39,191 nucleotides of DNA from positions 1 to 39,191 of IMG/VR virus record IMGVR_UViG_3300030060_006439. The stretch is one strand, 5' to 3'. Source of the stretch: a virus. Below are positions 6,574 through 20,666 of the stretch, piece by piece. A program made the position numbers and the translations under genes. Within the stretch, counting starts at the first letter, position 1. Every line of letters starts with the position of its first letter. The notes below the pieces were generated by a model. The model ran no database searches. It was not told where the DNA came from and was given only the letters and a program-made list of their open reading frames with translations.

Positions 6574-8148
6574 ATGGAATATAATAACCCTAGTGAGATC
6601 GTTAAAGATCTTAATTTTGGCAATGATGCCAGATCAAAGGTATTATCAGGTGTGGACAAACTGGCCGCGGCGGTCAAGTCCACCCTGGGTGCCTCAGGTA
6701 TGTGTGTAATATACGAAGATGCCCTGGGCTCTCCGGTGATCACAAAAGACGGTGTAACTGTAGCTGAATCGGTTGTCTTGCTTGATCCCGTTGAGAATAT
6801 AGGTGCAAGATTAGTAAAACAAGCATCGGCAAAAACTGTAGCGGAAGCAGGTGATGGTACAACCACATCAATAGTTTTAACCGAAGCTTTATTAAAAAAT
6901 ATAAATGAAGAATTATCTAGTAGCTCTATACGTGAAATTAAAGACGGTATTTATACAGGCTTGGAAAAAGTTAATAAATATCTTGAAGAACAAAGTGTTG
7001 AGGTTGAAGGCGATCTTTTGGAACACGTTAGCAGCATTAGTTGCAACAACGATAAGCAGCTTGGAAAAATTATATCACAAGCTTACAAAGAAGTAGGTAA
7101 AAACGGTGTTGTAATGATGGAAGAGTCTGAATCTGAAAAGACTTTTTCTGAAGTTGTTGATGGTGTACAGTTTGAAGCTGGCCTAACATCGCCACATTTT
7201 ACTACGAATAAGGACAAAGGTGTAGCAGAACTTGATAATCCTGCTATTTTAATTGTAAATTGTAACATACCTAACCTTAGAAAGATACAAAACGTGCTAG
7301 AACATGTGATTCAACAAAGAAAATCACTGTTAATTATAGCACAAATTGATGAAAAAGCAAAGTCCGCGCTCTTGATGAACAAAATTAAGGGTAATATAGA
7401 CGTAAATATCATAGATTTACCTGGTTTTATGTCCACAAGGCAAGGAACACTTGAAGATTTATCAATTTTAACCGGTGCAAAGGTAATAAATGAAGAATTA
7501 GGTGATGATTTAGACCTAATACAGCCAGATGTACTTGGTTCTGCGCTAAAAAGTGTAACAGATAACGAAAAAACTGTGTTAACTGTAGATAAAAACACAA
7601 AAGTAGTGCAGAAAAGAATAGCAGACGTTGAAAAGCTCATTGAAAAAGAGAAAGATCCGTTCTTGAAGAAGCATTTACAACAAAGACTGAGCATGTTAAG
7701 TGGTTCAGTTGGCATGATACGCGTAGGTGCCGTGTCAAAAGTTGAATTAAAAGAAAAGAAGGACAGGGTTGAAGATGCTATTTACGCTACTAAAGCAGCT
7801 TTACGTGAAGGTATAGTTGCAGGTGGTGGTATAGCGCTGCTAAACGCTGCGCAAGAACTTGAAAAAAGTAACAATATTGGGGAGAAAATACTAGCGAAGT
7901 CAATTAAAGCACCTTTCACAACTATAATGAGTAATGCTGGTATAGAAAACTACGAAACGCCTACCAACACTGGCGTTGGTTTTGATGTTATCTCGGGTAA
8001 CAGTGTTGAAATGATCAAAGCTGGAATCGTAGACCCCGTCTTAGTTACAAAGACCGCACTAAAAAACGCGGTTAGTGTTGCGACTACTATAACGTCGGCT
8101 GATTGTATTGTAAGTAACATTAGACTTAATCCAAATGAAAGCCGTTAA
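6574..8148 (+). CDS. groEL: phage-encoded group I chaperonin GroEL
   Basis: A 524-residue full-length chaperonin subunit that would form rings for ATP-driven folding, presumably of capsid or fibre proteins. Visible landmarks are KDLNFGNDAR near the start, ITKDGVTVA with the Asp equivalent to E. coli D52 at residue 59, GDGTTT (93-98), RVEDAIYATKAAL with the D398 equivalent at residue 401, AGGGIALL (416-423) and GIVDP (484-488). The usual LGPKG nucleotide-loop segment reads LGASG (39-42), losing the Pro, and the Gly-Gly-Met tail is absent. It overlaps the downstream groES by 14 bases, the reverse of the bacterial groES-groEL order. The first 200 bases are noticeably more GC-rich than the rest. 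Confidence 0.95.
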   Translation: MEYNNPSEIVKDLNFGNDARSKVLSGVDKLAAAVKSTLGASGMCVIYEDALGSPVITKDGVTVAESVVLLDPVENIGARLVKQASAKTVAEAGDGTTTSIVLTEALLKNINEELSSSSIREIKDGIYTGLEKVNKYLEEQSVEVEGDLLEHVSSISCNNDKQLGKIISQAYKEVGKNGVVMMEESESEKTFSEVVDGVQFEAGLTSPHFTTNKDKGVAELDNPAILIVNCNIPNLRKIQNVLEHVIQQRKSLLIIAQIDEKAKSALLMNKIKGNIDVNIIDLPGFMSTRQGTLEDLSILTGAKVINEELGDDLDLIQPDVLGSALKSVTDNEKTVLTVDKNTKVVQKRIADVEKLIEKEKDPFLKKHLQQRLSMLSGSVGMIRVGAVSKVELKEKKDRVEDAIYATKAALREGIVAGGGIALLNAAQELEKSNNIGEKILAKSIKAPFTTIMSNAGIENYETPTNTGVGFDVISGNSVEMIKAGIVDPVLVTKTALKNAVSVATTITSADCIVSNIRLNPNESR

Positions 8149-10353: not shown

Positions 10354-10995
10354 ATGCCTAGAATTAGTAGAATAGCAACGGATACAACATTAACAGATGG
10401 TGATAAGTTGATAGGTACAGATGTATCTGGATCAACTAAAAACTTTACACTAGGTCAAATGGGTGAGTTTGTCCAGAGTAACTATAGTAATGTAGATATT
10501 GCTAACGGCGCTGATAATAGGATAATAACAGCAACTGACTCCGACAGTTTAAGCGGAGAGGCTAATTTAACATTTGATGGTAGCACATTAGCTCTGACAG
10601 GTTCAGGAACAGTAAGTAGTGATTTTGATGTAACAGGTAGTGTAAAGATAACTCAAAATTTAAGAAGAACAGTAACAACAGTAACGCCTAGTAGTGGTGT
10701 ATCAACGATAAATTTAACCGCAAACGATAACTTTGTAGTTAACTTAGTAGATAATACAAACTCATTAGTTATGACAATAGCTAGTGAAAACGTTGGACAA
10801 TCTGGTGTTATAATACTTAAAAACCCCTCAAGTGTAGGGGCAGATTTTAGTATGGCAGCTTTACCTAGTAATATGCTAACACCAGCGGGTGCTAGTGTAA
10901 ACTTTACTACAGGAGCAAACGACACGTCAGTAATATCATACGTTGTGATATCATCAACTCAAGCATTAGTCAATTATGTGGGTGATTTTTCATAA
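10354..10995 (+). CDS. tail-fibre-like protein, 213 aa
   Basis: The N-terminus (ISRIATDTTLTDGDKLIGTD then FTLGQMGEFV) matches the common opening of marine phage fibre proteins, in which a TDGDKLIGTD segment precedes a virion-attachment helix. The rest is Ser/Thr/Asn/Val-rich beta sequence with repeated FDGSTLALTGSG- and FDVTGSVKI-like turns typical of fibre shafts, ending in a compact globular tip. It probably belongs to the tail or fibre apparatus. It lies 8 bases ahead of the first giant repeat protein. Confidence 0.65.
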   Translation: MPRISRIATDTTLTDGDKLIGTDVSGSTKNFTLGQMGEFVQSNYSNVDIANGADNRIITATDSDSLSGEANLTFDGSTLALTGSGTVSSDFDVTGSVKITQNLRRTVTTVTPSSGVSTINLTANDNFVVNLVDNTNSLVMTIASENVGQSGVIILKNPSSVGADFSMAALPSNMLTPAGASVNFTTGANDTSVISYVVISSTQALVNYVGDFS

Positions 10996-11003
10996 CGTAG
11001 TAT

Positions 11004-14000
11004 ATGTGGGATTTATTTAGAATATTTAAGAGAAGTACCTCAACTTCGAGGAGCACGTCTACAAATCGTACGACGCAGACAGCGTATTCTACAACAACCA
11101 CATTCAATACATCTACAAGCACAACCACTACATTTAATACATCTACATCAACTACAACAACCTATAATACGTCGACATCTACGACAACAACTTTCAATAC
11201 TACATTTTCTACTAACAGATCAACTAATACAGTAGTTAGTACTAATAGAGCAACTAATACTGTATACTCAACTAATATAGATACTACTACGACCTTCAAT
11301 ACTAGCACAGCTACTACTACAACCTTCAACACTAGTACGTCTACTACTACTACATTTAATACATCTACAAACACAATAACAAACTTTACTACTACCTTTT
11401 CTACTAATAAAACTACTAATACTGTTTTTGAAACAGCCTATGAAACTAGTAGAACAACGATATTTGAAACAACTAGAACTACTAATACTGTTTTTAATAC
11501 GTCTACTGTAACACAGAAGACAACAAGCACTGTGGTATCTACCAATAGAAATACTACTACTACATATTCTACTAATAGAACTACTAATACTGTATACTCT
11601 ACTAATAGATCAACATCTACGGAGTACAGTACTAATATAGATACCACAACAACATTTAACACATCTACAAGTACTACGACTGTATTTACGACTACGATAA
11701 CTACTAATATAGCTACCACAACTACGTTTAACACAACTATAAACACTACAACTACCTTTAACACATCAACCAATACAACAACGGTGTTTAATACTAGTAC
11801 GGTTACACAAAAGTCAACAAGTACAGTTGTTAGTACTAATAGAGCAACAAACACAGTATTCAATACATCTACAAACACAATAACGGTATTTAATACTAGT
11901 ACTAATACAATAACCGCTTATACTACTACATTTGCAACTAACAGAGCTACTAATACAGTAGTATCTACTAATATAGACACTACTACAACATTTAATACCT
12001 CTACCGCTACAGCTACTAGCAGAACAACTACAATAAGTACCAATAGAGCTACAACAACAACATACGAAACTAGTCAGTCAACATCTACAAGTAGAACTAC
12101 AACTATATCAACTAACAGAAGTACTAACACAGTGGTATCAACTAACAGGTCAACTAATACCGTATTTAACACTAGTACTAATACACAAACTAGTAGAACT
12201 ACGACTATAAGCACTAATAGAAATACTACAACCACATTTAATACGAGTACCAATACAACAACTACATTTAATACCTCAACAACAACTCAAACGAGTAGAA
12301 CTACAACTATAAGCACTAATAGAGCTACTACAACTACCTTCAACACAAGTACGTCTACAGCTACAAGTAGAACTACTACTATATCTACCAACAGGGCTAC
12401 AACTACTACATACGAGACAAGTAAGTCTACCACGACAGTATTTAACACAAGTACTACCACTACATTTGGCACAACTACTACGTATAGTACTAATGTAGAT
12501 ACTACTACAACTTTCAATACAACTAAGAGTACTACAACGACTTTCAACACATCTACTACCACGGTATTTAATACTACTACAGTATATTCTACTAATAGGT
12601 CAACTACCACTACGTTTAATACTTCTACCACTACAACGTTTAATACAACAACTACATATAGTACTAATAGAGCAACAACCACAACCTTTAACACTAGTAC
12701 CAATACAACTACCACGTTTAACACGTCTACTACAACAACGTTTAATACTACTACTACATACTCTACAAATAGAGCAACTACAACAACCTTTAATACGTCA
12801 ACCGCTACTGTAACAGTATTTAACACATCTACTACTACCGTGTTCAGTACCAATACAAGTAAATCAACTACTACTGTATTTAATACAAGTACAAGCACAA
12901 CTATAAGTACTAACAGATCAACTACGACTGTATTTAATACAACCACTACATATAGTACTAATAGAACTACTAATACCGTATTTACTACTAGTACGTCACG
13001 TTCTACTAATAGAACAACTACTACAACATTCACAACAACATTTGAAACAAGTAGAACAACTACATTTAATACGTCAAGAACTACAACCATAAGTACTAAT
13101 AGAACTACAAATACTGTATTTAGTACAACTACAACGTATAGTACAAACAGAACAACTAACACTGTATTCACAACAACTTTCCCTACTAGTAGAACTACTA
13201 ATAGAGCAACTACTACTACGTTTAACACGAGTACAACTACACAGACTAGTAGATCTACAACAACCACGTTTAATACAAGTACCACTACTACGTTCAATAC
13301 ATCTAGAACAACTACGTTTAATACAAGTAAATCTACTAATCGTACTACTACAACTACATTTACGACTACGTTCTCTACGTCTACTAATAGAAACACTACT
13401 ACAACTTTTAATACTAGTACAACCACGCAAACTAGTAGGTCAACCACAACTACGTTTAACACTAGTACAACCACTACATTTAACACATCTAAAACAACTA
13501 CGTTTAATACTAGTAAAAGTACTAACCGCACTACAACCACAACGTTTACCACTACTTTTGCTACATCAACTAATAGAAATACTACAACAACGTTTAATAC
13601 AAGTACAACTACACAGACATCTAGATCTACTACAACTGTGTTTACCACAAACACGACTAGAACAACTAATAGAAGTACAACTACTGTTTTTAACACGAGC
13701 ACAACTACAACATTTAACACTAGCAGAACCACCACGTTCAACACATCAAGAAGTACTAACCGTAACACTACAACAGTTTTTTCAACTACCACAACGTTTA
13801 ATACAACTACGACTTTTGTGACTACGTACTCATCACATCTACGATCTACAAACAGAGCAACATCTACAAATAGAAATACAACTGAGTCAAGAAGTACGTC
13901 TACAAATAGAAATACAACTGAGTCAAGAAGTACCTCAACTAATAGAAATACTACTACTACGTATTCTTCACACATAAGATCTACTAATAGAGCAACTACT

Positions 14001-14579
14001 ACTACGTTTACCACCACATTTGCTACATCTACCAATAGATCAACTACAACTACATTTAACACGCAATATAGTTCACACATACGATCTACTAATAGAAATA
14101 CATCTACAAGTAGAAGCACAACTACTACGTTTAATACTACTACTATTTTTAGCACAACTACTGTGTATAGTACTAACAGAAACACAGCTACAACTAGAAG
14201 CACAAGCACTGAATACCAACAGTCAACACTAATGGCATGGTTAACTGGTAGAGTAACAAGCAAAAACACAGCTACAACTAGAAGTACAAACACCACAACC
14301 ACGTTTAATACTATTACTACTTTTGCAACATCTACTAATAGATCAACTACAACTACATTTAGTACCACAACAACGTTTGAGACTTCTAGAACTACAACTT
14401 ATACAACTACGTTTAATACATCAACAACCACTACTTTTAATACTAGTACGCTAACCTATACGACTACAACGTTTGTAACAACATTTAATACGTCAAGGTC
14501 AACGTTTACATCAGGTGGCGGCGGTGGCGGTGGCGGTGGACTACCTCCGCGTGGTGGCGGTGGTGGTGACGCCCCATAG
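11004..14579 (+). CDS. giant Thr/Ser/Asn/Arg repeat fibre protein with poly-Gly tip, 1191 aa
   Basis: After a short head (MWDLFRIFKRSTSTSR) the protein is built from Thr-rich words such as FNTSTTTT, FNTTTT, YSTNRATTTT and FETSRTTT. Aromatic or Val/Ile residues recur 4, 6, 8, 10 or 14 residues apart in every stretch I checked, always an even number, as expected for an extended strand with one apolar face. A short non-repeat island (STLMAWLTGRVTSK) lies near 14225-14270. The C-terminus is Gly-rich (SGGGGGGGGGLPPR then GGGGG), resembling an adhesive tip. There is no Cys. NTS/NTT/NRS/NRT sequons are abundant. Probably a long virion fibre. The gene carries its repeats at protein level with scrambled codons. 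Confidence 0.75.
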   Translation: MWDLFRIFKRSTSTSRSTSTNRTTQTAYSTTTTFNTSTSTTTTFNTSTSTTTTYNTSTSTTTTFNTTFSTNRSTNTVVSTNRATNTVYSTNIDTTTTFNTSTATTTTFNTSTSTTTTFNTSTNTITNFTTTFSTNKTTNTVFETAYETSRTTIFETTRTTNTVFNTSTVTQKTTSTVVSTNRNTTTTYSTNRTTNTVYSTNRSTSTEYSTNIDTTTTFNTSTSTTTVFTTTITTNIATTTTFNTTINTTTTFNTSTNTTTVFNTSTVTQKSTSTVVSTNRATNTVFNTSTNTITVFNTSTNTITAYTTTFATNRATNTVVSTNIDTTTTFNTSTATATSRTTTISTNRATTTTYETSQSTSTSRTTTISTNRSTNTVVSTNRSTNTVFNTSTNTQTSRTTTISTNRNTTTTFNTSTNTTTTFNTSTTTQTSRTTTISTNRATTTTFNTSTSTATSRTTTISTNRATTTTYETSKSTTTVFNTSTTTTFGTTTTYSTNVDTTTTFNTTKSTTTTFNTSTTTVFNTTTVYSTNRSTTTTFNTSTTTTFNTTTTYSTNRATTTTFNTSTNTTTTFNTSTTTTFNTTTTYSTNRATTTTFNTSTATVTVFNTSTTTVFSTNTSKSTTTVFNTSTSTTISTNRSTTTVFNTTTTYSTNRTTNTVFTTSTSRSTNRTTTTTFTTTFETSRTTTFNTSRTTTISTNRTTNTVFSTTTTYSTNRTTNTVFTTTFPTSRTTNRATTTTFNTSTTTQTSRSTTTTFNTSTTTTFNTSRTTTFNTSKSTNRTTTTTFTTTFSTSTNRNTTTTFNTSTTTQTSRSTTTTFNTSTTTTFNTSKTTTFNTSKSTNRTTTTTFTTTFATSTNRNTTTTFNTSTTTQTSRSTTTVFTTNTTRTTNRSTTTVFNTSTTTTFNTSRTTTFNTSRSTNRNTTTVFSTTTTFNTTTTFVTTYSSHLRSTNRATSTNRNTTESRSTSTNRNTTESRSTSTNRNTTTTYSSHIRSTNRATTTTFTTTFATSTNRSTTTTFNTQYSSHIRSTNRNTSTSRSTTTTFNTTTIFSTTTVYSTNRNTATTRSTSTEYQQSTLMAWLTGRVTSKNTATTRSTNTTTTFNTITTFATSTNRSTTTTFSTTTTFETSRTTTYTTTFNTSTTTTFNTSTLTYTTTTFVTTFNTSRSTFTSGGGGGGGGGLPPRGGGGGDAP

Positions 14580-14613
14580 GTTAATACTAACTAAAATATG
14601 TAATAATAAAAAT

Positions 14614-15663
14614 ATGACATACAAACAACTGGAAAAAAACTATCTTGATGCCGAGCTTACGTTTGAAGATAACGGAGACATCAAGTGGTTTAATCCATCT
14701 GAAGAAGAAACATGGGAAGTTATGATGGGTTGGGAACAGCCTATTATGGAAAAGATGGCAGAGGTGTGTGTCAACGAAGGTGATCATGTTTTAGAGTGTG
14801 GTTTTGGTATGGGTATATTATCTACAGCTGTGCAGGCTAGAAAACCTGCGTCACACACTATAGCAGAAATACATCCACAAATACAACCAAAGCTAGCTGA
14901 GTTTGCCGCTAATAATCCAACAGTGAGAGCTGTAAATGATAGGTGGTTAAGCTTAATTAAAGAGACTGGTAGGTACGATGTAATACTAATGGACACGTAT
15001 GCCGATGCAGACTTACATCCAAAGTTTCCGTATTTTGTAAAACAAAAAGCAAAGCAAGGAAGTAAAATATCTTGGTGGAACTGGATCGGTAATAAAACAA
15101 GTGCTCAAATGAAATTTTACTGGCCAGATGAACATATTGTTTTTCATGATATAAATATAAACCCACCTGCAAATCAATATTATAATAAAAGCGTATATCA
15201 CTTACCAGTATATACAGCACAGATACCACCAACAGGTTACGGCGTTGTAAAGCAAGATGCTATAATACATATTAACGCTAACGAGGCTGTTCCTTTGTGG
15301 CAGGTTGGAAAACACAAGACTATACTATCATCAGATGTTTCAGGTAATAGATCAGAAAAACAAAAAGATGAAAAGACTGTTTTCGTTATGGGAGCAAAAG
15401 GTATATACACAATTAACTCTGATTTTAAAGCAAGTGGCAACCAACCTATAATAGCAAAAAGAAATAATATGTGGCGAGATTTCAATGTAAACCAATTACT
15501 TGTTGGTGATAAGCTATACGGTGTTGCCGGTAATGAAATAGAGATAACGCAAATAGACTTTGACGATTCAGAGACTGTATATGATATATGTAAGATAGAC
15601 GTTAACTATAATTACTTCGTTAACGGCATACTTATTGGGAAAGGAGGTGTAGACAATGCCTAA
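14614..15663 (+). CDS. GAMT/RMT2-like methyltransferase fused to a degenerate Hint domain
   Basis: The start is the ATG at 14614; an upstream in-frame extension overlaps the previous gene's Gly tail and is rejected. Residues 34-145 match the guanidinoacetate/arginine N-methyltransferase family: WEVMMGWEQPIMEKMAE, the SAM-binding VLECGFGMGILS (59-70), acidic EIHP (85-88), and YDVILMDTYAD (121-131), equivalent to the GAMT DGILYDTY segment. Residues about 255-343 look like a Hint (intein/hedgehog) fold: a GNQPII block, W.....NQLLVGDKLY (287-302), and VYDICKIDVNYNYFVNGILI (322-341). The N-terminal Cys and the C-terminal HN are missing, so self-splicing is unlikely. It overlaps the next repeat gene by 8 bases. 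The substrate may be the Arg-containing fibre repeats; this is inference. Confidence 0.75.
   Translation: MTYKQLEKNYLDAELTFEDNGDIKWFNPSEEETWEVMMGWEQPIMEKMAEVCVNEGDHVLECGFGMGILSTAVQARKPASHTIAEIHPQIQPKLAEFAANNPTVRAVNDRWLSLIKETGRYDVILMDTYADADLHPKFPYFVKQKAKQGSKISWWNWIGNKTSAQMKFYWPDEHIVFHDININPPANQYYNKSVYHLPVYTAQIPPTGYGVVKQDAIIHINANEAVPLWQVGKHKTILSSDVSGNRSEKQKDEKTVFVMGAKGIYTINSDFKASGNQPIIAKRNNMWRDFNVNQLLVGDKLYGVAGNEIEITQIDFDDSETVYDICKIDVNYNYFVNGILIGKGGVDNA
15641..15648 (+). promoter_or_regulatory. strong Shine-Dalgarno-like site
   Basis: AAGGAGGT lies 7 bases before the ATG at 15656. This is a near-perfect Shine-Dalgarno in a genome segment that otherwise shows almost none. It also encodes the GKGG residues at the end of the Hint domain, so coincidence with coding is possible. 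Confidence 0.4.
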
Positions 15664-18600
15664 TACTACTACAACTTTTCAAACAACTTTAGTTACAGAC
15701 ACACCAACACAAACAACTACCACGTTTAGTACTAATAGAAGTACAACTGTAAGTACAAGTAGAACTACTAGTAGATCAACTACATTTAACACTAGTAGAA
15801 GTACAAGTACTAACCGAACCACAACAACAACGTTTACTACAAATACAACCGCATCGGTAAGTACTAACAGAACTACAAGTACTACAACTACGTTCTCTAC
15901 ATCAACATCTTATACAACTCTGTTTAGCACAAATAGAGAACATGTCATGTGGGTTAATAATAGAGAAGGTGGAGGTGGTGCTACAGATACAGATCCGCTA
16001 TATGCTTTTGATCATGATAGCTCTGCTCAGGGCTCGAGTGACTATCCGGGTAATGGGTTTTTTAGAGTAAATAACCCAAGTGGTAACCCTCAAGATACAA
16101 CAAAGATTACTGTTTCAAGATATGGCAATGCTGGTACCGGCATAGATCATTCAGGTGCCATGGATGCTATTGTAAACGCAACAGTTGTTAGTGGCGTTAA
16201 AGGTAGATTACGACTTCTTGGTATTCTTGATGCTGGTGGTGGTGCTTATTCAGCTCCTGGCGTATCATATAAAATTACAGCTGCAACAAAACGAACAAAC
16301 GGCTCAAACATACATTACGAATTTACGGTTGCATACACTGGTTGGGCGGGTGGTGGTCCAAGTTTTACTGAATCAAATGGTGTTGCAACAAGTTATGAAG
16401 AAGGTAGCGGAGCTGTATATCAAATAGGTATTGCGTTTGAAGATGCAGGTGATACGTGGAATACATCAACTAATACAACCACTACGTTTAGTACAAATAC
16501 TATTTACAACACATCAACAACCACAACTACTAACAGAAACACAAGTACCACCAGCTCAACAACAACAACGTTTAATACAACAACAACATTTAACACAAGT
16601 ACAGTAACTAATAGACAGACAAGCAGAAGTACAACTACAGTTTTTAACACAAACACAACTAGGTCTACAAACAGAGCTACGACCACTACGTTTAACACTA
16701 GTACTATAACAAACAAAACTACAAACACTGTATTTAGTACAACCACAACATACACTACAAATACAGTATTTAATACTACTACAACTTATACTACAAACAC
16801 TGTGTTTAATACAACCACCGTGTTTAATACAAGTACAATAACTAATAAAAATACCAGTAGAAGTACGTCAACAAATAGAACTACATCTACTAATAGAAAC
16901 ACTACTACTACGTTTACTACAACGTTTAACACGAGTAGAACAACAACATTTAACACGTCACGTAACACTACAATTAGTACTAACAGAACCACTACGACTA
17001 CATTTACAACCACGTTTGGTACATCTACTAATAGAAGTACCACTACTACATTTGGTACAAGTACAGTTGTATCAACTAATAGAACTACTAATACGGTATT
17101 TAACACCATTACATCAAGGTCTACAAACAGAACTACTACTACAACGTTTACGACAACGTTTAATACCTCTAGAACCACAACGTTTAACACTTCGCGTACT
17201 ACAACAATAAGTACCAATAGAAGTACAACAACTACATTTGGTACGACTACCACATACAGTACTAATAGAACTACCAATACAGTGTTTAATACAACTACAT
17301 CACGTAGTACAAATAGAACAACGACTACAACTTTTACGACCACGTTTGAAACATCACGTACAACAACATTTAATACGTCGCGTACAACTACTATAAGTAC
17401 AAACAGAAGTACTACTACGACATTTGGTACTACTACAACCGTGTCTACAAACAGAGCTACTACTACAACTTTTACCACGACGTTTAATACATCACGTAGT
17501 ACAAACAGAAATACTACAACTGTGTTTAATACTAGTACTTCAACTTCAACTAACAGAAATACTACCACTGTCTTTAATACTAGTACTACTACTACTTTTA
17601 ATACTAGTAGAACTACAACATTCAACACAAGTAAATCAACTAATCGTACGACTACTACAACTTTCACTACAACATTTGGAACATCTACAAATAGAAACAC
17701 AACAACTGTATTTAATACGTCTACAGCTACATCAACAAATAGAGCGACTACAACCACGTTTAATACGTCAACCACAACAACAGTATCTACTAATAGATCA
17801 ACAACAACTACGTTTACAACATCTACGTCACGTACGACTACTATATCTACAAATAGATCAACCAATACTGTTGTATCTACTAACAGAGCTACTACTACTG
17901 TGTTCAATACTTCTACAGCAACAGCTACAAGTAGAACTACAACCATATCAACTAATAGAGCTACTACTACCACGTACTCTACTAACAGGGCTACAACTAC
18001 CACATTTAATACAGCTATAAGTACATCAACTAGTAGAACAACTACAATATCTACTAACCGCGCTACTACTACAACATTCAATACGTCAACGGCTACAGCA
18101 ACTAGTAGAACTACCACTATTAGTACAAATAGAGCTACCACTACTACGTTTAATACGACTAAAACAACAAACACTGTATTTAATACATCGACTACAACAC
18201 AAACGTCAAGGACTACTACAATATCTACCAATAGATCTACGACTACAACATTTAATACATCTACTAATACGACAACTGTATTTAATACTAGTACTACAAC
18301 TACATTTAACACTACAACTACATACAGCACTAACAGAAGTACGACAACTACTTTTAATACTAGTACTACAACTACATTTGGTACATCAACCACTGTATCT
18401 ACCAATAGAGCAACTACTACTACGTATGAAACTACAAGGACAACAAATACGGTGTTTAATACAAGTACCACTACTCAGTTTGCTACTACCACTACATACA
18501 GTACAAACAGAAATACTACTACAACGTTTAATACGTCAACAGCTACTGTAACAACATTTAATACAAGTACCACAACTACTTTTATTACAACAACTACGTT

Positions 18601-19705
18601 TAATACAGCTATAAGTACTACTACTACGTTTAATACAAGCACAACGACAACATTTAATACTACGACAACATATAGCACAAACAGAACAACAAATACAGTA
18701 TTTAATACTAGCACGTCGACTGTTACCGTGTTTAATACATCAACTGTCACGCAAAAAACAACTAGTACGGTTGTTAGCACGAACAGATCTACAAGCACAG
18801 TGGTATCTACAAATATCGATACAACGACTACGTTTAATACTTCAACAAATACTATAACAGCGTTTACAACAACACGTTCAACAAACAGAACTACATCAAC
18901 AGAATATAACACTACAAGAACTACTGAGACTGTGTTTGAAACTACAAGAAGTACTGAGACTGTGTTTGAAACAACGTTTGCTACTAATAGAGCTACAACT
19001 ACAACATACAGCACAAATAGAACAACCAATACTGTATTTAACACGTCAACTAACACAACAACGGTGTTTAATACAACTACTGCTACAGTAACAACGTTTA
19101 ATACAAGTACAGCTACTACAACTACATTTAACACTAGTACTACTACAATAACGTTATTTAGCACAACATACGAAACTAATATTGATACTACTACTACGTT
19201 TAATACATCAAGAACTACAATATTTATAACTACTATAAGTACAAACAGAGATACAACAACTGTGTTTAATACAAGTACTGTTACTGAAAAAGCTACTAGT
19301 ACTGTTGTATCAACAAATAGAGCTACAACAACTACGTATGAAACTAGTAGATCAACTAATACTGTTGTGTCAACTAATAGAACAACCAATACAGTATTTA
19401 ATACTACCACGGCTACAACAACTACTTTCAATACCACAACAGCAACGGTTACTGTGTTTAATACTACAACCACAACTAATAGAAATACAACTACAACGTA
19501 TAACACTTCAACTAACACAACAACTGTAGTATCAACTAATAGAGCTACAAGTACAGTATACAGTACTAATAGAGCTACTAACACTGTTATAAGCACTAAT
19601 ACCGTGTTTAATACAACCACAACATTTAATACGACAATAGCATTTTACAATACGGTAAGAGCAGATTACAATACTGACAGGGTAGACTACAATAGCTCTA
19701 GTTAG
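15656..19705 (+). CDS. giant Thr-rich repeat fibre protein with an internal globular domain, 1349 aa
   Basis: Residues 1-93 and about 267-1349 are the same word-built Thr/Ser/Asn/Arg repeat as in the 1191-aa protein (FNTSTTTT, YSTNRTTNTV, FNTSRTTT), again with aromatics at even spacing. Between them, residues about 94-266 form a non-repetitive Gly/Asp/Ala-rich domain (HVMWVNNREGGGGATD ... AYTGWAGGGPSFTE ... AVYQIGIAFEDAGDTW), likely a beta-sandwich. The C-terminus changes to AFYNTVRADYNTDRVDYNSS, with Tyr-Asn words and Asp residues. There is no signal peptide and no Cys. Translation is coupled to the methyltransferase gene by an 8-base overlap. Probably a second virion fibre or a partner of the first. 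Confidence 0.75.
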   Translation: MPNTTTTFQTTLVTDTPTQTTTTFSTNRSTTVSTSRTTSRSTTFNTSRSTSTNRTTTTTFTTNTTASVSTNRTTSTTTTFSTSTSYTTLFSTNREHVMWVNNREGGGGATDTDPLYAFDHDSSAQGSSDYPGNGFFRVNNPSGNPQDTTKITVSRYGNAGTGIDHSGAMDAIVNATVVSGVKGRLRLLGILDAGGGAYSAPGVSYKITAATKRTNGSNIHYEFTVAYTGWAGGGPSFTESNGVATSYEEGSGAVYQIGIAFEDAGDTWNTSTNTTTTFSTNTIYNTSTTTTTNRNTSTTSSTTTTFNTTTTFNTSTVTNRQTSRSTTTVFNTNTTRSTNRATTTTFNTSTITNKTTNTVFSTTTTYTTNTVFNTTTTYTTNTVFNTTTVFNTSTITNKNTSRSTSTNRTTSTNRNTTTTFTTTFNTSRTTTFNTSRNTTISTNRTTTTTFTTTFGTSTNRSTTTTFGTSTVVSTNRTTNTVFNTITSRSTNRTTTTTFTTTFNTSRTTTFNTSRTTTISTNRSTTTTFGTTTTYSTNRTTNTVFNTTTSRSTNRTTTTTFTTTFETSRTTTFNTSRTTTISTNRSTTTTFGTTTTVSTNRATTTTFTTTFNTSRSTNRNTTTVFNTSTSTSTNRNTTTVFNTSTTTTFNTSRTTTFNTSKSTNRTTTTTFTTTFGTSTNRNTTTVFNTSTATSTNRATTTTFNTSTTTTVSTNRSTTTTFTTSTSRTTTISTNRSTNTVVSTNRATTTVFNTSTATATSRTTTISTNRATTTTYSTNRATTTTFNTAISTSTSRTTTISTNRATTTTFNTSTATATSRTTTISTNRATTTTFNTTKTTNTVFNTSTTTQTSRTTTISTNRSTTTTFNTSTNTTTVFNTSTTTTFNTTTTYSTNRSTTTTFNTSTTTTFGTSTTVSTNRATTTTYETTRTTNTVFNTSTTTQFATTTTYSTNRNTTTTFNTSTATVTTFNTSTTTTFITTTTFNTAISTTTTFNTSTTTTFNTTTTYSTNRTTNTVFNTSTSTVTVFNTSTVTQKTTSTVVSTNRSTSTVVSTNIDTTTTFNTSTNTITAFTTTRSTNRTTSTEYNTTRTTETVFETTRSTETVFETTFATNRATTTTYSTNRTTNTVFNTSTNTTTVFNTTTATVTTFNTSTATTTTFNTSTTTITLFSTTYETNIDTTTTFNTSRTTIFITTISTNRDTTTVFNTSTVTEKATSTVVSTNRATTTTYETSRSTNTVVSTNRTTNTVFNTTTATTTTFNTTTATVTVFNTTTTTNRNTTTTYNTSTNTTTVVSTNRATSTVYSTNRATNTVISTNTVFNTTTTFNTTIAFYNTVRADYNTDRVDYNSSS

Positions 19706-19760: not shown

Positions 19761-20666
19761 ATGGAAATGTTTAATAGGAAGGTCCTGAAAGAAAGAATAG
19801 GGCACCTTCAAAAAAATGATAAGCTCGATTACTTGGAGCAAGTAGAGGGCTATGTTATACGAAAGTGTAGCGAAAACGGAATAGAGTATGCTTATGATGT
19901 AATGGCAGAAGAGATGCCTTACTTTAAAACAATGGCATACACAGAGTTGGCAACGTGTTTTTATTTGCAGCCAATGAACTACAAGATAAGAGACGCACAA
20001 ATACCAGATGCGTTTCATGATAAAGATCATAAAGTTTTAGATTATGCTTCTTATTTTGTAAGTAACATAACAGACAATACTGCCAACAAGTATAAAGATA
20101 GATTAGATGAGTACGAAAAGTGGCCAGCTAAAGACTATTTAGTAATACTTCCAGGTTCAAACAAATTAAAAGACAGATGTTGTTTGAACAAAATGAGGCA
20201 TATACAAAAAGCACATAAGGGTAATGTTTTATTTAAACCACACCCAATAACAACTCATCAAATTATTGGTGAAATGAAAGACTTCTTTGGACAAGAAAAC
20301 GTGCTGCCAAGAGAGATGGATATGTACTACTACATACAAAAAGCAAAGAAAGTTTACACAACACATATAAGTGAAAGTGCTGTATACGCAGCTGTGTTAG
20401 GTAAAGATATAGAACCATTTGATGTATGGAATAGTATATTTTATGGATCTTTTTATTGTGTTAGTAATCATTTGTTTGATAACAAACACGATGCAAGAAA
20501 TTATATAAATAAAACCTTTTCAAGTCCTAAATCAGGGATTATATGTCCTAGAATAGATAAGAACTGGAAAGAAAAAGTTGATAAGTACTTTGAGTACATA
20601 ACTGCTAAAAGAGATAAGTATAAAAACTGGTTTATTGATAGCAGAAAACCAAAAAATAAAAAATAA
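19761..20666 (+). CDS. glycosyltransferase-like protein (GT-B, capsule polysaccharide type)
   Basis: A 301-aa protein whose second half has GT-B features. YLVILPGSNK (126-135) is the opening strand of a nucleotide-sugar domain, VLFKPHPITTHQ (156-167) matches the KPHP motif of capsule-synthesis/polysialyltransferase-like enzymes, and HISESAVYAAVLGK (202-215) matches the late S-S/E-x-x-x-YAALLGK signature. The first 120 residues are helical and unassigned. No membrane segment. The nearest alternative is a CDP-glycerol phosphotransferase-like fold. Directly downstream of two giant Thr/Asn-rich fibre genes, it may glycosylate them or a host glycan; the link is inferred. Confidence 0.6.
   Translation: MEMFNRKVLKERIGHLQKNDKLDYLEQVEGYVIRKCSENGIEYAYDVMAEEMPYFKTMAYTELATCFYLQPMNYKIRDAQIPDAFHDKDHKVLDYASYFVSNITDNTANKYKDRLDEYEKWPAKDYLVILPGSNKLKDRCCLNKMRHIQKAHKGNVLFKPHPITTHQIIGEMKDFFGQENVLPREMDMYYYIQKAKKVYTTHISESAVYAAVLGKDIEPFDVWNSIFYGSFYCVSNHLFDNKHDARNYINKTFSSPKSGIICPRIDKNWKEKVDKYFEYITAKRDKYKNWFIDSRKPKNKK

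Follow-up and report, generated by a model that had tools for sequence, protein, structure and literature searches.

Two neighboring genes for threonine-rich proteins, located in a viral stretch of 39,191 nt (IMG/VR record IMGVR_UViG_3300030060_006439; referred to as the window in its full length), raise the question of why their aromatic residues keep even distances and what their irregular spacing encodes. Coordinates and reading frames given for both in the first-pass annotation were correct. The upstream gene on the plus strand (11004..14579, 1191 aa) encodes the putative fibre strand A, in which a face of T/F/Y/R/K alternates with one of S/T/N/A/V, and the downstream gene on the same strand (15656..19705, 1349 aa) encodes putative fibre strand B, the antiparallel complement of A. 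Searches of A and B against Pfam and PHROGs resulted in no match, nor did a tblastn search of B against isolates, in which the low-complexity filter of BLAST conceals such proteins. Long antisense open reading frames across A and B were rejected as composition artefacts, because the complement of ACN-rich sequence has no stops.

Spacing parity and the two faces of each chain

Analysis of the anchor residues revealed even spacings between consecutive F/Y residues (96 even and 5 odd in A, 95 and 0 in B), as the first-pass annotation had claimed, and the same was found for F/Y together with R/K in the repeat regions (174 even and 5 odd in A, 172 and 0 in B). The five odd F/Y spacings of A are all close to its C-terminus, three of them at the repeated kink YSSH[LI]RST and two at residues 1145–1157. 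Valine and isoleucine, which had been named as anchors as well, do not follow the rule: adding them resulted in 86 even and 76 odd spacings in A and 84 and 88 in B, since V is located mainly on the other face. The many odd spacings that the annotation regarded as incompatible with its rule are therefore found, literally taken, once V/I are counted, and they are not found for F, Y, R, and K. Residue shuffles yielded 47.5% even spacings with a maximum of 61%, and the parity extends to the homologues, with 6586 even and 328 odd F/Y spacings in 113 T-rich proteins (A and B of the window plus 111 de-duplicated relatives).

The alternation is a long-range feature. T-runs between a small residue and F/Y/R/K have a length of 2, 4, 6, or 8 in 3400 of 3502 cases, and a two-phase HMM applied to the T-rich proteins revealed an alternation that continues for as many as 1697 residues with no slip. 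These runs show no fixed repeat and contain at most 1.3% Gly and at most 0.1% Pro per face. One face carries F, Y, R, K, and many T, the opposite one S, N, A, D, V, and the other T. Large residues are practically never two positions apart along one strand. The small face is nearly without large residues (R, W, M, and H near 0.0%; F, Y, and K 0.1–0.2%). The anchor face consists of about 60% T, 18% F/Y, and 14% R/K. These data agree with the extended beta strand of fixed parity and two distinct faces that had been suggested, though not with one continuous aromatic face.

Antiparallel complementarity of A and B

The word length itself had been considered free apart from its parity. The parity was confirmed, but not the freedom: the irregular pattern of A is the pattern of its neighbor B in reversed order with aromatic and basic residues swapped, and the spacing is therefore a pairing address. 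Cross-correlation of A with reversed B resulted in a single near end-to-end register (shift -10, z 13). Residues 1–944 of A (11004..13835, plus strand) and residues 1339–396 of B (16841..19672, plus strand) form one ungapped block, with an aromatic residue opposite a basic one in 124 cases and like opposite like in one. It is followed in A by three shorter paired blocks (residues 945–1078, 13836..14237, plus strand) separated by YSSH[LI]RST kinks, at which A has a few residues more than B, and by a distal block (A residues 1079–1167, 14238..14504, plus strand, paired with B residues 94–6, 15671..15937, plus strand) with 13 aromatic-basic and no like-like pairs. Overall, the complementarity extends over some 1,160 residues and comprises 152 aromatic-basic and 4 like-like pairs, when an insert of about 172 residues near the distal end of B (residues 95–270, 15938..16465, plus strand) is skipped. 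This insert, looped out of the pairing, is conserved in the relative L128, revealed no Pfam match, and probably forms a globular domain.

Several controls were applied to this match. When B was shuffled word by word (n = 2000), which preserves its vocabulary and parity, the best difference between heterotypic and homotypic pairs reached a mean of 17.1 (sd 2.1) and a maximum of 27, compared to 123 for the real pair. Chains of non-cognate phages, close relatives excepted, reached 28. Parallel pairing was rejected, with a maximum of 25. Among 29 cognate pairs, 2293 aromatic-basic pairs were found versus 137 like-like ones, so that the heterotypic fraction amounts to 94% for cognate antiparallel chains, 63% for non-cognate, and 27% for parallel ones. 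The alignment score pools F, Y, R, K, W, and H as large residues and is thus blind to aromatic versus basic; the pair types after this class-blind alignment were F-R (543), R-F (610), F-F (30), R-R (8), and K-K (0). In well-aligned fibres, R/K is located opposite F/Y/W in 97% of the cases (75/79 and 78/79 in the window), Q opposite F/W/H, and E opposite T and almost never opposite R/K. Steric volume compensation was not seen on the small face (correlation +0.05).

In regard to the surroundings of the pair, the C-terminal tail of A is Gly-rich (GGGGGGGGGLPPRGGGGGDAP, 14505..14579, plus strand); at this position, relatives carry GGGG-CxRGC, an additional domain, or a Peptidase_S74 chaperone. An ORF between the two genes (14605..15663, plus strand) resulted in no library match, and by eye it has a methyltransferase-like half and a Hint-like C-terminal half. 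The C-terminus encoded by the gene just upstream of A (10354–10995) resembles, again by eye, proteins upstream of the Lullwater and Cr30 counterparts, and its product may be the attachment part of the fibre. Downstream of B follows a conserved gene with a KPHPIT motif (phrog_26179, 19761..20666, plus strand), whose product is possibly a GT-B glycosyltransferase and had no match in PDB and NCBIfam.

Split pairs, hairpins, and coevolution among relatives

A degenerate DNA pattern for TTFNTSTTT detected more than 118 marine viral contigs among the matches listed. Their T-rich genes mostly occur as adjacent pairs, and the pairing code is present in about 30 such split gene pairs. In regard to the host, a pair of such genes is located on a Flavobacteriales MAG (94 aromatic-basic versus 2 like-like pairs, written 94:2 and likewise below), and TerL relatives infect Flavobacteriia. 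Nearly all pairs examined have one sharp near end-to-end register, only L167 and L085 being split between two because of kinks. In L085, even the segment lengths are mirrored, with 148, 88, 88, 88, 87, 225, and 339 in A, where each 88 is the sum of short sub-segments, and 340, 224, 90, 89, 84, 85, and 156 in B.

The same complementarity was identified within single genes as a hairpin, namely in L194 (3395 aa, 226 aromatic-basic and 0 or 1 like-like pairs, 226:0.5), L266 (3421 aa, 231:1.5), L215 (72:0), and L244 (68:0). Most of a set of proteins of 230–330 aa revealed 7 to 15 aromatic-basic versus 0 or 1 like-like pairs. No clean central hairpin was seen in a few long proteins rich in T (L243, L245, L248, and L265). 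The gene order of A followed by B corresponds to a hairpin gene cut at its turn, with the extra domains at the tip. Furthermore, partners could be predicted: records with one known T-rich gene yielded a complementary partner in all five informative cases, namely L313 (185:2 over 1632 residues), L314 (129:2), L316 (119:1), L315 (74:1), and L312 (27:0, the gene being cut), while a sixth record ends within the gene and was not informative.

The relative closest to the window, L316, displays mirrored points of divergence. Its ungapped similarity ends at A632 and, in B, extends from B708 to near the end, and 632 + 708 = 1340 is the pairing register. Within this region, co-substitutions have a sharp peak exactly at the register, with 29 versus 9.3 expected (p 1.8e-10) and with 21 and 14 at the neighboring offsets k=-2 and k=+2. 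In nine other related comparisons, the co-substitution peak was broad (k 0 to +4). A separate count of compensatory swaps in ten related comparisons resulted in four double swaps and none to like-like, which is the right direction in few numbers.

Cultured phages with members of this kind were reached by way of the KPHPIT gene that follows the fibre genes. KVP40.0254 (197 aa), located two genes upstream of the KPHP gene KVP40.0256, revealed a hairpin with 9:0 pairs (0 of 2000 shuffles) and a predicted register of i+j=281 (1-based); it belongs to phrog_30374, annotated as hypothetical or 'cell wall mannoprotein'. Further vibriophages gave 13:0 (D479), 12:0 (K575), and 9:0 (VS2), the pairing of D479 and K575 being centred at 251 and 252 (0-based, on the stop-to-stop ORF). 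The N-terminal domain of this protein is also present in QD01, a vibriophage of the laboratory strain Vibrio natriegens Vmax. The negative controls Cr30 gp254, DLP6, X1, and BUCTxx99 showed no complementarity, the proteins of the last three sharing the N-terminal domain of KVP40.0254 alone, and Lullwater gp41 was marginal (10:2, p 0.035).

Proposed fibre, alternative explanations, and known systems

Based on these results, A and B are very probably complementary strands of one very long antiparallel beta fibre with an aromatic-basic code, likely with the composition A3B3. Each chain would be an almost unbroken extended beta strand, with T and F/Y/R/K on one face and S, T, N, A, and some V on the other, and the even but varying word lengths would keep the anchors on one face. 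Running antiparallel from end to end, R/K of one chain would lie directly opposite F/Y of the other and form cross-strand cation-pi contacts, with T mostly opposite T in between. We suppose that the irregular spacing acts as a code unique to each phage that keeps in register a threonine ribbon which would slip without it, and that prevents pairing with a wrong chain, other phages using the same design as a single-gene hairpin. As A3B3, the fibre would be a needle of six antiparallel strands, with its interior formed by the small face and its surface by the F/Y/R/K/T face. Peptidase_S74 (PF13884) ends the A chains of many relatives, e.g., L137 and L167, above the Pfam cut-off, and was found in neither A nor B of the window; the trimer is thus deduced from relatives and by analogy to the gp37 needle of T4. 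Attachment would take place at the end formed by the N-terminus of A and the C-terminus of B; since the C-terminus of A with its variable tip domains lies at the other end, that end is presumably distal. The sequences themselves show the parity, the antiparallel register, the pairing code, the predictability of partners, and the coevolution, while the beta conformation, the cation-pi contacts, the hexamer, the choice of the proximal end, and a role of the fibre in host binding are inferred. AlphaFold monomers of small hairpins were of low confidence (mean pLDDT of 42 for L223 with 16 relatives and 35 for L231 with 2) and speak neither for nor against this fibre.

In general terms, we consider it likely that these phages possess a natural protein duplex, in which two separate chains of more than 1,000 residues run antiparallel and an aromatic-basic code at irregular even spacings is the address for both register and partner, mirrored gene segments are exchanged together, and hairpin and split forms interconvert across unrelated tailed phages.

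The number of chains is the point at which another assembly has a fair claim, though a clearly smaller one. Instead of A3B3, the same antiparallel pairing could yield a ribbon of two strands (A1B1) or a larger stack of amyloid-like or sandwich type, as the measured complementarity is pairwise only, each pair has one register, and A of the window is without the S74 domain. This domain, however, is a trimerising chaperone that ends A in many relatives, and a lone ribbon of hundreds of nm would expose both faces, while the small face excludes large residues like a buried narrow core. The Thr/Ser face could also be O-glycosylated by the adjacent KPHPIT protein, the fibre being an extended glycosylated rod in which pairing is secondary. 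Of 141 testable fibre genes, 112 have the KPHPIT gene directly 3' (within 400 nt), and elsewhere in TerL loci this gene is seldom found (2/80). Its KPHP motif together with one weak Capsule_synth match (E 0.038) suggests a GT-B fold. Nevertheless, we regard this rod as improbable: it leaves the antiparallel aromatic-basic matching and the mirrored divergence unexplained, and the enzyme assignment is weak. Glycosylation as such is compatible with the paired fibre and does not exclude it.

It is far less probable that A and B fold separately into homomeric structures (beta-solenoid or triple beta-helix), with the parity reflecting strand amphipathy and the match being a by-product of shared words. 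Parity alone is compatible with any regular beta structure and the vocabulary is indeed common to A and B, but the match was destroyed by word shuffles of B that kept vocabulary and parity, and apart from close relatives it was not found with non-cognate B chains. There is also no coil-length period, the order of segments is mirrored rather than repeated, and the mirrored coevolution already speaks against it. Least of all do we expect an origin at the DNA level, with even words resulting from hexanucleotide slippage and the reversed partner from an inverted duplication. The genes do contain ACN strings rich in C as well as recurring words; FNTSTTTT, however, has 12 DNA encodings among 13 copies, so that the recurrence of words is not one of DNA, and between relatives synonymous differences affect 37–43% of the identical codons. 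Since words use different codons nearly every time, selection acts on the protein. Moreover, T-runs vary by two codons rather than one, and an exchange of F for R with T kept as T is impossible by any DNA inversion.

If the duplex of A and B is true, residue-by-residue recognition of long complementary strands, a hallmark of nucleic acids, would have a natural case of programmable protein-protein addressing, with F/Y against R/K, T against T, and even spacing as its rule, and a design language for long protein nanofibres with exact register. It would also account for a large group of low-complexity phage proteins that lack annotation and are lost to homology filters, and offer a clean case of inter-gene coevolution. 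As cultured vibriophages carry small members, the system is directly testable. A fully extended chain measures about 0.33 nm per residue; if fully extended, the fibre of the window would reach some 380 nm and the longest hairpin some 560 nm, which is exceptional among phage fibres.

Among known systems, the distal needle of T4 gp37 is a very thin domain at the tip of a trimeric phage fibre (about 150 by 25 Å; PMC3004832). It is about 15 nm long, consists of one protein, and has His-iron sites. In fibres of the A/B type, an arm can reach about 1,700 residues, the arms are often encoded by two genes, His and Gly are nearly absent, and an aromatic/basic complementarity code is present. A later crystal structure of gp37 reportedly revealed six antiparallel strands, three chains going out and back. 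In this respect, the needle is like the hairpins proposed here, in which strands running to the tip and back are strongly suggested by the mirrored complementarity. HxH iron motifs of the gp37 type were lacking, His being limited to three residues in A and four in B. Searches of PDB with phmmer and profiles found no fibre, and no sequence similarity to gp37 was detected. Peptidase_S74 proteins are usually homotrimeric, and the domain at the end of many related A chains implies trimeric folding, though the shaft seems to require a second, complementary protein and A of the window has a Gly-rich tail instead. Threonine-array (ice-binding) solenoids differ as well, as word lengths vary here and no strong coil period was detected beyond a near-neighbor peak at 10 residues, and the fixed-length repeat with Gly/Pro turns of the triple beta-spiral and the gp5C beta-helix was not found. 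KVP40.0254 is of the same kind as A and B, with its complementary hairpin and a KPHP-family gene nearby, but unlike these long split chains it is a single gene with arms of about 55 residues.

Tryptophan zippers, peptides with Trp/Lys cross-strand pairs, and MAX1 are short, designed, regular beta peptides. Such hairpins share the two-residue periodicity and the cross-strand aromatic or aromatic-basic contacts, while the fibres described here are natural, extend over hundreds of pairs with an irregular code, and are partner-specific. The literature searched (open-access text) revealed no described equivalent. The statement in the first-pass annotation that no such fibre fold was described needs to be divided: a fibre of continuous antiparallel strands has, to our knowledge, a precedent in the gp37 needle, whereas the aromatic-basic complementarity between two proteins appears to be unprecedented.

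Additional domains and T-rich relatives

Near the distal end of the proposed fibre, the partner strand protein B carries an inserted domain of about 172 aa (15938-16465), which is kept in the T-rich relative L128; a database search with it resulted in no match. In other phages, two relatives (L196 and L177) revealed domains of about 150 aa close to the C-terminus of the fibre strand protein A, and these as well as the insert in B are candidate receptor-binding domains. Four further T-rich proteins of about 1200–2100 aa (L243, L245, L248, and L265) retained the vocabulary of even-length words, and a search for a central hairpin revealed no clean one in any of them; these may be members whose partner lies elsewhere or which contain several hairpins.

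Reading frames between and over the fibre genes

The two fibre genes are separated by an ORF (14605-15663) with a methyltransferase-like N-terminal and a Hint-like C-terminal half, whose single match, from a metagenomic jumbo phage, covered only the first of these halves. Long V- and L-rich antisense ORFs over the genes for A and B (12287-14368, 16786-18471, and 18475-19620, all on the minus strand) were rejected as genes, since they result from the stop-free complement of the repeats.

Genes flanking the fibre module

Downstream lies a gene (19761-20666) with a KPHPIT motif and a match to phrog_26179, a family annotated as of unknown function. Such a gene followed the fibre gene within 400 nt in 112 of 141 testable cases, its location being the same for split systems (A and B as two genes) and hairpin systems (both arms in a single gene). 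Its product is possibly a GT-B enzyme dedicated to the fibre.

A short distance upstream of the module, the phage encodes a GroEL (phrog_5725, 6574-8148), a gene also present in the related phages MW202828 and elemo. The protein directly upstream of A (10354-10995) may be a proximal fibre or adapter; in a comparison by eye only, its end resembles Lullwater gp40 and Cr30 gp253, which are both encoded upstream of small fibre genes.
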